Source: Thermoanaerobaculia bacterium (lineage in GTDB: Bacteria > Acidobacteriota > Thermoanaerobaculia > Multivoradales > JAIOJS01). Taken from it: a stretch of DNA of 64,000 nucleotides. Within the stretch, counting starts at the first letter, position 1. Each line of letters opens with the position of its first letter. Below the pieces are notes generated by a model. The model did not search any database, had not been told where the DNA came from, and saw nothing but the letters and a program-made list of their open reading frames with translations. The position numbers were made by a program, and so were the translations under genes. This document shows positions 10,850-17,378 of the stretch, in pieces. Where the stretch lies: positions 1-64,000 of the forward strand of contig JAUIDB010000004.1 of NCBI GenBank assembly GCA_030429235.1, read 5' to 3'.

Positions 10850-11092
10850 CTAGTCGTGGGTTGAGGACGAGACGGCCGGTGCTTTCGGTTGGCGGACCAG
10901 CGAGAAGAGATAGAGCCCGATCCCGGCCACGACGAGGGAGCCACTGCCGAGGGCGAAGGCGAGGAACCCGGTAGGGCTCTGCAGGGCGCCGAACGACATC
11001 AGTTCGACCAGCAGTCCGACCACGATGAGCAGCGCCGACCATCGGAGGTAGGGACGGCTGCGGGTCGGGGCCGAGTTTTCGGAGCCGGTCAT
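10850..11092 (-). CDS. Small membrane protein at the end of the cytochrome operon
   Basis: The 80-residue protein has two predicted membrane helices (about 17-37 and 44-66) and no recognised domain. Its ATG at 11092 overlaps the stop of the tetrahaem cytochrome gene (ATGA), so the two are translationally coupled. The longer frame upstream is a shadow of the cytochrome gene. It may be an assembly or stabilising partner of the NapC-type protein, but nothing in the sequence shows this. It converges on the HxlR gene, and the 56-bp gap between them has no clear terminator. Confidence 0.7.
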   Translation of the reverse strand: MTGSENSAPTRSRPYLRWSALLIVVGLLVELMSFGALQSPTGFLAFALGSGSLVVAGIGLYLFSLVRQPKAPAVSSSTHD

Positions 11093-11721
11093 GGGCCTTC
11101 CGTCCTGGTCGGTTCGGCGGTGGGCCAGCGATCGTAGTCTGCCAACGAGGCGACCTCGTGGCTCATGTCGTGACACTCGAGGCAGGAGAGTTCGTTGGAC
11201 TCGATCTCGGCCCGGTCCTCGGCGTGCATCTCTTCGTAGAGCCGCGCCCCGGCGTGGCAGTGCAGACACTCTCGGTTGTGGTAGGGCTCGTACAGTTCGA
11301 TCGTCTCCGGAGTCGCACCACGGTAGTAGACGAGGAGATGGCGTACGCCGTTGATCTTCGCGGCGAGGTCGCCGTACATGGTGTACTGGGTATGGCAGGT
11401 GTAGCAGGCTCGGTCGCGGTCGATCCGTCGGTTCTGGAAGTGCGAAGCGGGCAGGGCAAACTCGTCATCGATCGCGAGACTCTCCCCGTAGGGCTCCATG
11501 ACATGGCAGGAGAGGCAGAACTCGGTGCTCTTCGAACTCTCGAGATGAGTCGAGACGCCGGCCCAGAGGCAAGTCACGGGAAGGACGAAAAGCGCCAGAA
11601 ACGCCATGGCCTGACCACCGGAGCGGGTGACCAGTCGTGGTTGTGCCACCACGAGCATGGCGAAGCCGATCCCCACTAGCACGAGCGTGACGAGCAGATA
11701 CCAACCGAGAGTCGCGTCCAT
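11089..11721 (-). CDS. NapC/NirT-type membrane-anchored tetrahaem cytochrome c
   Basis: The 210-residue protein has two hydrophobic stretches at the N-terminus (about 5-27 and 38-56) followed by a periplasmic domain with four CxxCH sites: CLSCH, CYTCH, CLHCH and CLECH. This matches the NapC/NirT/NrfH/CymA group, which takes electrons from menaquinol or ubiquinol and hands them to periplasmic cytochromes. The first membrane helix is extra compared with NapC, which normally has one anchor. It sits between a monohaem cytochrome gene (11 bp upstream) and a small membrane protein (ATGA overlap). The gene cluster diverges from the MtrA/MtrB/NirS arm, for which it is the obvious inner-membrane electron donor. 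Confidence 0.85.
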   Translation of the reverse strand: MDATLGWYLLVTLVLVGIGFAMLVVAQPRLVTRSGGQAMAFLALFVLPVTCLWAGVSTHLESSKSTEFCLSCHVMEPYGESLAIDDEFALPASHFQNRRIDRDRACYTCHTQYTMYGDLAAKINGVRHLLVYYRGATPETIELYEPYHNRECLHCHAGARLYEEMHAEDRAEIESNELSCLECHDMSHEVASLADYDRWPTAEPTRTEGP

Positions 11722-11732
11722 CGCGGGAGCCC

Positions 11733-12131
11733 CTAGAGGGTCGCGAGCCAGTCCAGAATCGCCTGGAGTTCCTCGTCCGTTCCCTTGAAGGGCTTCTTGT
11801 GTTTCTCACCCTCCAAAGACTCCTCCTGGCGCAGGTACTTCTCGACGCTCGTGCGATCGAAGTCCTCGCCCAGTCCCGCTAGATCACGCGCCTGCATCTT
11901 CTCGGACTTCGTGCGCCGCTCGATGCCGTGGTTGGACACTGCGTGACAGAGGTTGCACTTCTGGGCCTCGAACGCCATCTGTCCCGCCGGCACCTCGACC
12001 TGGGACGGCGCCGGCTGGCTCGTAGCCGGCGTGGCGGCAGCGGGAACGAAGGTGGACAGGACGAGCGGAGTAGCCAACAGCGCTAGCAGCCGCCGGCCGA
12101 AGAGTGGGGAGTTCGTCTCTACGTAGTTCAT
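11733..12131 (-). CDS. Periplasmic monohaem cytochrome c
   Basis: The 132-residue protein has a signal peptide (MNYVETNSP... to about residue 35) and one haem site, CNLCH, in the context AFEAQKCNLCHAVSNHGI, then a class I cytochrome-like C-terminus ending AILDWLATL. A methionine ligand is not obvious: the only Met after the haem site is in KSEKMQARDL. The ATG at 12131 is chosen over the upstream frame because GAGG lies eight bases before it. As first gene of the minus-strand arm it may shuttle electrons between the NapC-type protein and the decahaem or cd1 proteins encoded across the divergent promoter. Confidence 0.85.
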   Translation of the reverse strand: MNYVETNSPLFGRRLLALLATPLVLSTFVPAAATPATSQPAPSQVEVPAGQMAFEAQKCNLCHAVSNHGIERRTKSEKMQARDLAGLGEDFDRTSVEKYLRQEESLEGEKHKKPFKGTDEELQAILDWLATL

Positions 12132-12210
12132 TGCTGGGGACCTCCGTCGGAAGGGTGACACCGAGGGCTCGGCCGTGCACCACTAGATTGCGTGGTAGAG
12201 GGGCCGCCTT

Positions 12211-12275
12211 TTTGGGTAAGTCTTTACTGCCCAAATAGATGTGTCAATGCCCGGGGCTCTATCGATACTGTCAAT
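12211..12275. promoter_or_regulatory. Divergent control region of the cytochrome cluster
   Basis: The 168-bp gap between the two arms holds an inverted repeat TTTGGG (12211-12216) / CCCAAA (12230-12235) with an A+T-richer core, and a direct repeat TGTCAAT at 12242-12248 and 12269-12275 (27-bp period). No FNR/DNR box (TTGAT-N4-ATCAA) is present. The symmetry suggests a regulator shared by both arms, but no factor can be named. Confidence 0.35.
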
Positions 12276-12299
12276 CCAACTCAAAGCGGAGGGTCAGGT

Positions 12300-13265
12300 A
12301 TGACGAGAATCCATCGGTCCTATTGGGTGCTCCCGGTGGCCGCACTCTTTCTTCTGGGCTATGGGCCATCACCGGGACGCACGGGCGCTACGGTTCCGTC
12401 GCACGTTCCGGTGGGTTGGGCTGAAGAGCCAGCGAGCGAAGTGACGGGGTACGCCGGAAGCGAGGTCTGCTCGGCTTGCCATGACGACATGGAGGCGCAC
12501 TTCTACTCCGGTCCCCACGGGTCGGACGCCTTTTCGCAGCGCAGTGACCTCGGCTGCGAGTCGTGCCACGGTCCGGGCGAGGCGCACGCCGACGATCCCG
12601 AGGATCCCACGGCGCGAGTGAACCTGTCTCGCTGGACGCCCCAGCGGCAGAGCGAGGTTTGTCTCACCTGCCACCAGGATACCCAACCCAGCTATCACGC
12701 TGGGCCCCATGCGGCGGCCGATCTCAGCTGCTCGAGTTGCCACAGCATCCACAACGACAGTGGTTGGACGCTGGTCGAAGAGCAAGCCGAGCTCTTTCAG
12801 CTGGCTCGCGTGAGCGGATCGAGTGCGCAGTGCATCCAGTGTCACGCCGACGCCGGCGTCGACTTCGAGCGCAACGAGCGGCACCGTCTGCAGGAGGGGA
12901 CCATGGACTGCGCCAGCTGCCACGATCCGCACGCGCCGTCAGCCAGGCTCCAACTCGGTGGCTTCAAGCAGCAAGCGTGTATCGACTGCCATCAAGACAA
13001 AGGAGGACCCTTCGTCTTCGAGCATGGATCGGTCCGAGTCGAGGGCTGCACCGCCTGCCACGAGCCACACGGTGGCCCAAACCGGCACCAGCTCAAGTTC
13101 GAACGAGCCGCTGAGCTCTGCTACAGCTGCCACGTCGAGGTGCCGAGTTTCCACCTTGGTTTCGGGAGTTTTCCCCAGCCACCTCGTTTCGACCTCGACA
13201 CCAATTGCATGAACTGCCACAGCGCGATTCATGGATCCAACTTCGATCCCTACTTCTTGAAGTAG
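12300..13265 (+). CDS. Decahaem c-type cytochrome, DmsE/MtrA family
   Basis: The 321-residue protein has an N-terminal signal peptide and exactly ten CxxCH motifs: CSACH, CESCH, CLTCH, CSSCH, CIQCH, CASCH, CIDCH, CTACH, CYSCH and CMNCH. Length and haem count fit MtrA/DmsE/PioA, which sit inside an outer-membrane beta-barrel and carry electrons across the outer membrane. ATG at 12300 is preceded by GGAGG about 10 bases upstream; the longer frame from 12192 lacks a signal peptide at its start. The MtrB-type barrel follows after 10 bp. No outer-surface MtrC-like decahaem partner is encoded here, as in the PioAB and MtoAB systems. Confidence 0.92.
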   Translation: MTRIHRSYWVLPVAALFLLGYGPSPGRTGATVPSHVPVGWAEEPASEVTGYAGSEVCSACHDDMEAHFYSGPHGSDAFSQRSDLGCESCHGPGEAHADDPEDPTARVNLSRWTPQRQSEVCLTCHQDTQPSYHAGPHAAADLSCSSCHSIHNDSGWTLVEEQAELFQLARVSGSSAQCIQCHADAGVDFERNERHRLQEGTMDCASCHDPHAPSARLQLGGFKQQACIDCHQDKGGPFVFEHGSVRVEGCTACHEPHGGPNRHQLKFERAAELCYSCHVEVPSFHLGFGSFPQPPRFDLDTNCMNCHSAIHGSNFDPYFLK

Positions 13266-13275
13266 AGAGGGCATC

Positions 13276-15114
13276 ATGAAGCACACTCGCAATCCCTACC
13301 GTTCTCTGCTGGCTGGCCTGTCGTTGGTCGTCTGCGCGGCCACTCCCGCCCTGGCCCAGGAGGGGGAGGGAGTCATTCTTCTGGGGTACCGCAGCGTCGA
13401 CGTCGACGGTTCCCAGGCCGAGTTCGACGAGGACATCAATCAAGACGACGGTCCGGTGCTCTTCCGGTTGGACATTTCGGTCGATCCCGAGAGTGGTCTC
13501 GCCGACCACCTCGAACTCGACGCCACAGACCTGGGTGGTCAGAGTTTCGAGTCGCTCCACTTCGGGGCTCGGAGCTACGGAGTGTACGAATTCACCTTCG
13601 ACCGTCGCGAGTCCGACTACTCCTACCACGACACGCTGGGGGCGGCCGATGGGACGGCGCATCCGGACTACCACACCTTCGACTTCCGTCGGGTGCGGGA
13701 CGTGGCACGGCTCGAGCTGGACCTCGCTCCGACGGCGACGCTGACGTTCGGGTTCGACCGTTTCTCGAAGAGCGGAGAATCCACGACGACCCTCGACATT
13801 TCTCGCGACGAGTTCGAGTTCCACCGACCTGTCGACGAAGAGATGGAGTCCTTTGATGTTGGGTTCTCGTACGCCTGGGACAAAGTTACCCTGGTGCTCG
13901 AAGAGCGCATCAGTGACTACCAGAACATGGTGGAGGTGTTCCTGCCGGGGGCCTCCGAGGGCGAAGCCCCGGGCCCGGCGACCCTGGACTTCTTCTTTCT
14001 CGATCAGCCTTACGACTACTCGAGTCAGAGGCATACGGCGAGAGTGCTGGCCCGTCCCCACGAGAAGCTCGATCTACGGTTCTCGGCTTCTCTCGAGAGT
14101 CTCGACCTCGACCTCGAAGCCTCCGAGCATTCTCAGGGGACGACCTTCTCGGGCAGTCCCTTCACCACCGACCTCGGCGGCGAGGGGCAGATCGATCGCG
14201 ACATCGAACTCTACGACTTCGAGTTGACCTATCTCGTCAACGAGCGCCTGGGAGTCGTGGCCGGAGCGCGGCACAAGGCGCTGGACCAGCGCGGTGGTCT
14301 CGCCTTCGGCACCGACTTCAACGCCAGCAACTGGGAGCTCGAATCGACCGGCTACGAGGCCGGGGTCCGGTTTCGGCTGCCCAGGGACTTCAGCCTGGGA
14401 GGTGGTCTGGCGTTCGAGACGCGGGACATTGCCTTCCACTGGGAGCAGGGCAGCGAGGGACACGGGGAGGACGGCAGCACCGACAGCTCCGGCTACTGGT
14501 TGGACCTGGCCTGGCGACCCGACCGCTCGCTGGAACTGATCGCCAAGATCGATACGAACTCCTTCGACGATCCGTTCACCCTGACGAGTCCCACGGATCG
14601 GTCGCGCTATCGACTTCAGGGACGCTACCGCTGGGAGAACGGCCTGAGTTTGCAGGCTTCGGTACTGCGGAGCGACTTCGAGAACGATGATTCTGGCTGG
14701 ACGTCGGATACGCTGCGTTCGACGGTTCGGTTGGGATACACCCGACCGGATCTCGTGGCTTCGTTTGGCTACTCCAACGTCGAGATGGACCGCGAGATCG
14801 CTCACGTAGTCGCCGGGGGGGCTCTGCGTCCCTTCTTCGACATCGACTACGGATCCGACTCGGACTTCTTCGATGGTCGGGTGAGGTGGTCTCCCACGGA
14901 ACGGCTGGCGGTCGGGGGCAACGTCTATTTCTACGACAACGCCGGCAGTTTCGCACTGCAACGGGAGGACCTTCGGGCCTTCGTCGAGTGTGCCTTCACC
15001 GACCACTACGTCGGCGGCATCTCCTATCGCCGGGTGGACTACGACGAAGGGTTGTTCGACTTCGACGACTACTCGGCCGACATCGTCGAACTGACCGTCG
15101 GCTACCGTCACTGA
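13276..15114 (+). CDS. MtrB/PioB-family outer-membrane beta-barrel
   Basis: The 612-residue protein has a signal peptide (about 1-27, ending PALAQ). It is then almost entirely alternating amphipathic strands rich in Asp, Tyr, Ser and Arg, as in MtrB/PioB/DmsF porins of 26-28 strands. Typical stretches are GYRSVDVDG, VGGISYRRVDYDE and the closing VELTVGYRH. The CXXC pair near the N-terminus of Shewanella MtrB is absent. The family forms the sheath that holds the decahaem protein encoded immediately upstream. The start ATG has AGAGAGGG upstream. Identification rests on family features and its place beside the decahaem gene. Confidence 0.85.
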   Translation: MKHTRNPYRSLLAGLSLVVCAATPALAQEGEGVILLGYRSVDVDGSQAEFDEDINQDDGPVLFRLDISVDPESGLADHLELDATDLGGQSFESLHFGARSYGVYEFTFDRRESDYSYHDTLGAADGTAHPDYHTFDFRRVRDVARLELDLAPTATLTFGFDRFSKSGESTTTLDISRDEFEFHRPVDEEMESFDVGFSYAWDKVTLVLEERISDYQNMVEVFLPGASEGEAPGPATLDFFFLDQPYDYSSQRHTARVLARPHEKLDLRFSASLESLDLDLEASEHSQGTTFSGSPFTTDLGGEGQIDRDIELYDFELTYLVNERLGVVAGARHKALDQRGGLAFGTDFNASNWELESTGYEAGVRFRLPRDFSLGGGLAFETRDIAFHWEQGSEGHGEDGSTDSSGYWLDLAWRPDRSLELIAKIDTNSFDDPFTLTSPTDRSRYRLQGRYRWENGLSLQASVLRSDFENDDSGWTSDTLRSTVRLGYTRPDLVASFGYSNVEMDREIAHVVAGGALRPFFDIDYGSDSDFFDGRVRWSPTERLAVGGNVYFYDNAGSFALQREDLRAFVECAFTDHYVGGISYRRVDYDEGLFDFDDYSADIVELTVGYRH

Positions 15115-15458
15115 CGCCGGGGCCGGGAGACTTCGAGGCGCGGTCTCGCGGTCGATTCGGAGCCCCGAACTGATCGCCGTCATACGCCTCGGCCTGGAGT
15201 CGCGGTCATGCTATGCCTGTCGTGTGGACTCAGGCCCCAGGCGGTCCTTCTCGCCAACCAACTTCTCGCCCTGAGCGATCACGGTACCCCTTTCCCGAAG
15301 GGCTCTGCCCTCGGCCGTTGGGTGACCGGGTTCTCCGGTCCACGACCCCAGTTGGCAGCCGAGCTGAGCAGCTCGGAGATGACGTTCCCAGGACCGTAGC
15401 GCTGGCCCCTGTAACGGCACGAAGCCAGCGTTTCCTGAATCGCAACAAGGAGATCACG
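15115..15458 (+). other. 344-bp gap between the barrel and nitrite reductase genes, no gene seen
   Basis: No convincing reading frame, tRNA or riboswitch is seen. A short hairpin GACCGG-GTTCT-CCGGTC occurs around 15325-15345. The gap is long for an operon, so nirS may have its own promoter here, but no -10/-35 pair or FNR/DNR box is clear. Confidence 0.4.
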
Positions 15459-17378
15459 ATGACCCTGAATCCACCCCGATCGTTGGTCGGACTCGGACTT
15501 ATCCTATTGACCGCGCTCCTCACCGGCTGTTCCGGAGGAGAGAAGGGAATCGGCGATCCGGTCGCCGGTCAACAGGTCTTCGAGCGCAACTGCCTGACCT
15601 GTCACACCGTGGGCCAGGGGGATCGCATCGGCCCCGATCTGATCGATATTCACGAGCGACGCGATCGCGATTGGCTGGTGCGCTGGATCGACGACCCGAT
15701 CGGAATGTCCAAGACCGACCCGATCGGTCAGCAGATCCTGGCCGAGTGGAACAACGTTCCCATGGCCGATTCGAACCTGACCAAGGGCCAGATCGACGAC
15801 GTCCTGGCCTACCTGGAGAAGGCGAGTGGGGAAGGCGGTCTGGTGGTCGAAGAGAAGCCCTTCGAGCCACTGGAAGGAGAGCGCTTCGAGTTGGCCAAGG
15901 ACATCTACTTCAACCGCTGCGCGGGCTGTCACGGAACGTTACGGGCGGGAGCCACTGGTCCGAACATCCAGCCTACTCGGACCCAGGAGATCGGCACCTC
16001 GGGCCTGGAGCGGATCCTCAACGACGGTCTTCCGGGCGGCATGCCCCCCTGGGGCCGGATGGAGATCCTGACGGCGGACGAGATCAACATGATGGCCAAC
16101 TACGTACAGATGAATCCGCCCGAGCCACCACAGCTACCGCTGGAGGAGATCACCGAGACCTGGAACTTGATGGTGCCGGTGGCGGATCGGCCCTCCGAGC
16201 CGAAGACCGAGCGGGACTGGGAGAACTACTTCGGCATCATCCTGCGGGACGCCGGCAAGGTAGCGATCATCGACGGCGATACCAAAGAGAACGTCGCCAT
16301 CATCGACACCGGCTTTGCGGTCCACATCCTCCGCGCGTCGTCGACCGGGCGCTACTTCTACGCGGTCGGGCGCGATGGGCGGGTCTCGATGATCGATCTG
16401 TGGACCGAGACTCCGAGTCTGGTAGCCCAGGTACAGGGCTGCTTCGATGCTCGAAGCGTCGATGGCTCCAAGTTCGAGGGTTACGAGGACCAACTGGTCA
16501 TCGAGGGTTGCTACTGGCCCCCGCAGTACGTGATCTTCGACGGCCAGACGCTCGAGCCCAAGACGGTGCATTCGGTGTTGGGCCCGACCGTCGACACCCA
16601 GGAAGAACTGGACGAGGTCCGCGTGGCCGCCATCGTGGCGTCGCACTACGACCCGATCTGGGCGATCGGCCTGAAGGAGTCGGGCTACGTCGGATTGGTC
16701 GACTACTCGAAACCGGACTTCCCGATGACCCACAAGATCGCCGCCGAGCGGTTCCTTCACGACGGCGGATTCGACCACACCGGACGCTACTTCCTCACGG
16801 CCGCCAACATGCGGGATCAGATGGCGGTGATCGATCTCAAGGAACAGAAGATGGTCACCAAGTTCGAGACCGGAATCAAGCCGCATCCGGGGCGGGGAGC
16901 CAACTGGCAGGATCCGGAGTTCGGTTGGGTGAACGCCACCACCCACCTCGGTCAGGGCAAGCTTTCGGTGTACGGGGCAGATCCCGAGGGGTCTCCGGAG
17001 CATGCCTGGAAGCTCGTTCGAGAGGTCGAACTTTCGACCGCCGGCAGCCTGTTCTTGAAGACCCACCCCGAGTCGCAGTGGGTTTGGATGGACTTCCCGC
17101 TCTCGTCGGACGAAGAGCTGACCCGACAAATCTGCGTCTACTCGAAGGAGACGGCGGAGGTAGAGAAGTGCTGGCAGCCCACCGACCACGGTCGGACCGT
17201 GCACTTCGAGTACAACCGACAGGGCACCGAGGTCTGGGTGTCGGGCTGGGACAAGGCAGGGGAACTCGTGATCTACGACGACAAGACCCTGGAGGAGATC
17301 CACCGGATCGCCGAAGACTGGTTGGTGACGCCGACCGGCAAGTTCAACGTGTACAACACGTCGAACGATATCTACTGA
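15459..17378 (+). CDS. nirS: Cytochrome cd1 nitrite reductase with an additional N-terminal cytochrome c domain and lipobox
   Basis: The 639-residue protein starts with a lipoprotein signal (LTGC, Cys24). A first cytochrome c domain has CLTCH at 45-49 and a likely Met ligand in NVPMAD. A second has CAGCH at 154-158 in the NirS context RCAGCHGTLRAGATG and the segment GGMPPWG. The d1-haem propeller (about 235-639) follows. The propeller keeps proximal-ligand H289 (GFAVHI) and the catalytic pair H434 (FLHDGG) and H476 (PHPGRGAN), 42 residues apart as in Pseudomonas NirS (H327/H369), and ends TPTGKFNVYNTSNDIY. It should reduce nitrite to nitric oxide. Usual NirS has one c domain and is soluble. 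AAGGAG supports ATG at 15459. No d1-haem synthesis genes are in the window. Confidence 0.9.
   Translation: MTLNPPRSLVGLGLILLTALLTGCSGGEKGIGDPVAGQQVFERNCLTCHTVGQGDRIGPDLIDIHERRDRDWLVRWIDDPIGMSKTDPIGQQILAEWNNVPMADSNLTKGQIDDVLAYLEKASGEGGLVVEEKPFEPLEGERFELAKDIYFNRCAGCHGTLRAGATGPNIQPTRTQEIGTSGLERILNDGLPGGMPPWGRMEILTADEINMMANYVQMNPPEPPQLPLEEITETWNLMVPVADRPSEPKTERDWENYFGIILRDAGKVAIIDGDTKENVAIIDTGFAVHILRASSTGRYFYAVGRDGRVSMIDLWTETPSLVAQVQGCFDARSVDGSKFEGYEDQLVIEGCYWPPQYVIFDGQTLEPKTVHSVLGPTVDTQEELDEVRVAAIVASHYDPIWAIGLKESGYVGLVDYSKPDFPMTHKIAAERFLHDGGFDHTGRYFLTAANMRDQMAVIDLKEQKMVTKFETGIKPHPGRGANWQDPEFGWVNATTHLGQGKLSVYGADPEGSPEHAWKLVREVELSTAGSLFLKTHPESQWVWMDFPLSSDEELTRQICVYSKETAEVEKCWQPTDHGRTVHFEYNRQGTEVWVSGWDKAGELVIYDDKTLEEIHRIAEDWLVTPTGKFNVYNTSNDIY

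Follow-up and report, generated by a model that had tools for sequence, protein, structure and literature searches.

The nirS gene on a 64,000-nucleotide stretch of a Thermoanaerobaculia bacterium genome (contig JAUIDB010000004.1; hereafter the window) encoded a cytochrome cd1 nitrite reductase that looks functional and would be lipidated at Cys24 and held at a membrane, with a fused cytochrome c domain as its putative tethered electron donor and with a haem d1 that is probably either imported or made by an unknown route. We put the probability of this explanation at about 75%, a joint estimate that also covers the reading of the extra domain and the anchor as traits of this NirS lineage, not as an adaptation to the neighbouring MtrAB.

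The translated NirS had 639 amino acids and ended in a stop codon (Table 1). Pfam detected Cytochrom_C at residues 36–121 (1e-16), Cytochrome_CBB3 at residues 146–216, and Cytochrom_D1 at residues 253–634 (E 4e-108). In a sequence search, the top PDB match was P. pantotrophus NirS (window residues 139–639, E 2e-154), and this region aligned with solved NirS structures without serious gaps, a c-type domain and a d1 propeller both being present across the full NirS length. The catalytic and d1-binding residues of P. aeruginosa NirS are R156, H182, R198, H327, H369, and R372 (PMC7278500). In the alignment, H289, H434, and H476 of the window NirS corresponded to H182, H327, and H369, and R263, R305, and R479 to R156, R198, and R372; the histidine ligand of d1, the two catalytic histidines, and the three d1-binding arginines were all present. 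The AlphaFold model (mean pLDDT 87) showed a helical extra domain, and its best PDB fold matches were all cd1 nitrite reductases. Among 28 aligned homologues, C45, C48, and H49 of the extra domain were kept in all 28, M102 in 24, and the lipobox Cys in 20; the conserved features of the N-terminus are not due to chance, and M102 is likely the second haem ligand of the extra domain. The preliminary description, which placed a lipobox (LTGC, Cys24) and a second CxxCH domain (45–49) before a complete NirS, agreed with the Pfam, PDB, and residue-alignment results. The canonical NirS proteins of P. aeruginosa and P. pantotrophus share the c and d1 domains and the catalytic and d1-binding residues with the window NirS, but they are soluble and bind a single haem c, and the P. 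aeruginosa gene lies beside d1 biosynthesis genes, unlike that of the window.

Table 1. Positions of the features in the window and of TonB-dependent receptors at other NirS loci
Feature	Position	Strand	Remarks
NapC/NirT-like tetrahaem cytochrome	11089..11721	-	part of conserved mtr module
Monohaem cytochrome c	11733..12161	-	part of conserved mtr module
MtrA-like decahaem cytochrome, 10 CxxCH	12300..13265	+	neighbour; adjacency to nirS looks incidental
MtrB/PioB-like outer-membrane barrel	13276..15114	+	neighbour, 344 bp before nirS
Shine-Dalgarno AAGGAG	15447..15452	+	precedes ATG, read directly
nirS	15459..17378	+	lipoprotein signal, extra cytochrome c domain, canonical NirS
Type II signal peptide, lipobox LTGC, Cys24	15459..15530	+	conserved in relatives
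Extra cytochrome c domain, about residues 33–123	15555..15827	+	CLTCH 45–49, likely ligands H49 and M102
Canonical NirS cytochrome c domain, about residues 139–217	15873..16109	+	CAGCH 154–158, M195
d1 haem eight-bladed propeller	16215..17360	+	H289, H434, H476, R263, R305, R479
Haemin-type TonB-dependent receptors directly beside nirS	L019:1426-3816, L202:6941-9040, L203:4808-6814, L023:13186-15639, L025:13440-16079, L026:11972-14596, L027:13203-15356, L030:11906-14071, L069:13325-15868		genomes without recognisable d1 genes

The annotated start codon of nirS was well supported, because a Shine-Dalgarno sequence lies upstream and because in G420, the closest relative (71%), NirS begins at the equivalent position and carries a lipobox of different sequence, LVTAC. 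These observations ruled out a true start after the lipobox. Lipoboxes were called by motif and hydrophobicity, and on this motif basis the window NirS had a hydrophobic signal with a lipobox Cys at its end, as bacterial lipoproteins do. The earlier proposal that a lipid would hold the enzyme at a membrane is well supported, and the motif is kept in relatives. Under the rule for E. coli, the Ser at +2 of the window NirS would mean the outer membrane. The combination of lipobox and extra c domain was also found in Acidimicrobiia, which are monoderm; therefore, the anchor there must be on the cytoplasmic membrane. AniA, a copper nitrite reductase of Neisseria, has a lipid anchor, as the window NirS does, and the haem-c-tethered, three-domain NirK has a fused cytochrome c as electron donor, as the window NirS does, but both are unrelated copper enzymes.

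In the proposed working of the enzyme, lipidation at Cys24 would anchor it on a membrane surface, where the extra haem c (H49 and probably M102) would receive electrons from a soluble c-type cytochrome or a quinol oxidase complex. Electrons would then pass to the canonical haem c (H158/M195) and through haem d1 to nitrite, with NO as the predicted product. That the extra domain transfers electrons, as was first suggested from the window alone, is well supported; its haem-binding residues were invariant (28/28), and it was present in 59 of 84 NirS sequences. Cytochromes fused to redox enzymes are established as electron donors, and this was argued for the C1-C2-NirS of Chloroflexi (PMC8756737).

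A scan of GTDB genomes yielded 80 NirS loci, and overall 84 NirS sequences were scored for the extra c domain and 83 for the lipobox, which was present in 47. The extra domain occurred in 59 of the 84 sequences and together with the lipobox in 34; these sequences spanned at least seven phyla and were found in Myxococcota, Gemmatimonadota, Chloroflexota, Actinomycetota, Acidobacteriota, Pseudomonadota, Campylobacterota, and Thermodesulfobacteriota. The two features were separable: G376 had the lipobox alone, and G028 and its kin had the extra domain with no lipobox. NirS was rare around the source organism, being present in 6 of 396 genomes of the phylum and 5 of 148 of the class. In the phylogeny built from the NirS core, the window sequence paired with G420 (SH-aLRT support 91) inside a clade of 52 sequences, most of which had the extra domain. 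This tree needed 9 changes for the extra domain and 15 for the lipobox, indicating that both were gained and lost repeatedly. Related but distinct subtypes of the extra domain were seen: that of the window; one from Chloroflexi and Thermoanaerobaculia, which carries an insertion; and another shared by G198, G414, and G452. Separately, a Myxococcales genome with further NirS copies encoded a protein that resembles NirS and has two c domains (L062:9872-11800) but neither the d1 ligand nor either catalytic histidine. Rrf2-family regulators, plausibly NO-sensing and NsrR-like, were located near nirS in Actinomycetota and Gemmatimonadota (L029:11846-12295, L032:11916-12359, L033:11388-11747, L037:10819-11103, L027:18962-19465, L026:9390-9803, and L046:1939-2355).

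The architecture of the window NirS is essentially that of C1-C2-NirS, which is known but under-reported. Schwartz et al. (2022, PMC8756737) described C1-C2-NirS in Chloroflexi, considered it unique to that phylum, and stated that environmental databases did not contain it. The distribution above contradicts this uniqueness, the extra-domain NirS being much broader than Chloroflexi. In the Chloroflexi proteins as in the window NirS, one more cytochrome c domain stands N-terminal to a complete NirS, and no other nir genes lie next door. The window NirS differs in belonging to another phylum, and its additional c domain is not of the Chloroflexi C1 subtype, since it is without the insertion and has its likely Met ligand in a different column. 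It also has a lipoprotein signal, which is unmentioned for C1-C2-NirS in PMC8756737. In a phylogeny of 540 NirS sequences, clades differed in part by whether nirBEFJNT were present (PMC10999283), and some of the breadth of the extra-domain architecture may already be recorded in the figures or supplements of that study.

Haem d1 biosynthesis genes, which would lend support to a NirS assignment, were not found in the source genome, which is 4.85 Mb and rated 100% complete. Neither NirF, which acts with NirC to install the keto groups of haem d1 according to the account in PMC13168839, nor NirN was found there: the Cytochrom_D1 matches were NirS and one protein on contig C37, and the latter, considered as a NirF candidate, proved to be a YVTN-type propeller. 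In the same genome, no protein matched the NirDLGH model or reached the NirJ cut-off, and there was no match to nosZ. The best NirJ candidate, on contig C58, was a NirJ2/AhbD-like radical SAM protein with 345 bits to NirJ2 (cut-off 500); it was rejected as NirJ because its scores reached none of the cut-offs and paralogues like it were also found alongside a true NirJ. A partial alternative d1 route via this protein is possible. We searched 30 NirS genomes for d1 genes, counting NirJ as strong above 330 bits, that is, also below the strict cut-off. Strong NirJ, NirF, and usually NirDLGH occurred together in nine of them (G028, G088, G452, G497, G500, G504, G509, G511, and G515), in most of which the d1 genes lay beside nirS. 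NirJ and NirF were absent in the rest of the 30, including all Gemmatimonadota, Actinomycetota, and Chloroflexota tested, and most genomes with a NirS of this architecture had no NirF, NirDLGH, or over-threshold NirJ. With the greater part of the known haem d1 pathway missing from the source genome, the cofactor of its NirS is probably either imported or made by an unknown route.

One tentative form of this explanation is that the NirS lineage depends on its neighbours, having kept an anchored NirS while d1 synthesis was lost or never present, and importing the haem d1 of other denitrifiers via a haemin-type TonB receptor, the gene for which adjoins nirS in several genomes. The top haemin-type (TIGR01785) receptor of the genome lay directly beside nirS, at a distance of about 20 to 1,600 bp, in G420, G414, G376, G506, G501, G502, and G503, all seven of which had no strong NirJ and NirF matches. 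The G420 receptor exceeded the TIGR01785 cut-off (372 vs 316.85 bits), and receptors of this family were also beside nirS in L023 and L069. None of 13 tested loci with d1 genes had such a receptor beside nirS. The chance of the best receptor lying this close to a random position was about 1e-3 per genome, the Gemmatimonadota not being mutually independent. The three Acidobacteriota cases differed in gene order, with receptors 28–38% alike. By a locus-level Fisher test, TonB receptors and d1 genes were not significantly associated (p 0.18–0.34), because d1 genes missing from the vicinity of a locus may lie in another part of the genome; many diderm loci with no nearby d1 genes also had no receptor. 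In the window, no TonB receptor was beside nirS; the two haemin-type receptors of the source genome were on other contigs, and one preceded an iron-type ABC transporter. The receptors beside nirS could serve the uptake of haem or iron, not haem d1. No proposal of haem d1 import was found in a literature search that missed most subscription journals. As a separate observation, the receptors of L023, L025, L026, and L069 had an additional N-terminal stretch of approximately 130–190 amino acids before the plug, which had no Pfam match and by eye resembled a CbiX-like chelatase fold.

The missing NirF, NirDLGH, and true NirJ in a genome rated complete would also fit a NirS that survives as a relic or serves some other role, either as an apo-protein without haem d1 or with another tetrapyrrole bound. 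We consider this unlikely. In the alignment, the d1 pocket, with all d1-contacting and catalytic residues, was conserved in the NirS of genomes without d1 genes, the window included, and the window reading frame was intact; these two observations indicated that selection still acts on NirS.

In the remaining alternative, NirS would act as terminal reductase for an Mtr-type conduit, in which MtrAB would deliver electrons to a lipid-anchored NirS on the surface, or electrons from outside would reach a periplasmic NirS. The mtrA and mtrB genes lie directly upstream of nirS on the same strand, no MtrC-like gene was beside them in the window, and a lipobox with an additional haem would be apt for a reductase at the cell surface; in Shewanella, DmsAB is the terminal reductase for the DmsEF conduit. 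The window resembles the MtrCAB and DmsEFAB systems in its adjacent MtrA- and MtrB-like genes, but these had no conserved association with NirS. The module of NapC-like protein, cytochrome c, MtrA, and MtrB (window 11089–15114) was conserved in genomes of the same order, and NirS was found in none of 14 such genomes with close relatives of the window mtrB. In 12 mtr loci inspected in this order, the module was complete and kept without NirS: mtrA preceded mtrB, genes for a cytochrome c and a NapC-like protein were usually close by, and the gene 3′ of mtrB varied. Conversely, no match to the window MtrB was found at other NirS loci, some of which were on short contigs with neighbourhoods partly seen, and matches to MtrA there were weak and multihaem only, at L042 (>4 kb away) and L047. 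Across 44 NirS-bearing genomes, PF11854 detected MtrB/PioB in 10, mostly Acidobacteriota, a model that may miss divergent barrels, as it scored the window's own MtrB weakly (27 bits). In G420, the NirS with the same anchor and extra domain adjoined a TonB receptor and not mtrAB. The preliminary description had supposed that the extra domain could accept electrons from the decahaem conduit, and asked whether the domain always accompanies MtrA/MtrB; the domain was common in NirS without Mtr neighbours, which that description had itself named as a refuting outcome, and none of the 84 NirS except that of the window adjoined mtrAB, so this idea was not supported. NirS loci without mtrAB and mtr modules without NirS ruled out Mtr coupling as a general design, and together with the 344-bp gap between mtrB and nirS they make the conduit improbable, although a coupling peculiar to the species of the window is possible. 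The simplest reading is that mtr and nirS are two independent modules side by side, because mtr is conserved without NirS, NirS occurs without mtrAB elsewhere, and the gap separates them; their adjacency looks incidental. Near a divergent NirS in a Myxococcales genome, we also noted three large frames of multihaem cytochromes (12, 12, and 27 CxxCH; L047:8770-13658), approximately 5 kb away.

The window case warns against inferring electron-conduit biology from one chance neighbour, and the distribution corrects the published claim that a NirS with a fused cytochrome is unique to Chloroflexi. It also exposes the question of how NirS obtains haem d1 in the many genomes without the known pathway. 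If d1 were shared between species, counts of nirS in genomes and metagenomes would not mean autonomous nitrite reduction.
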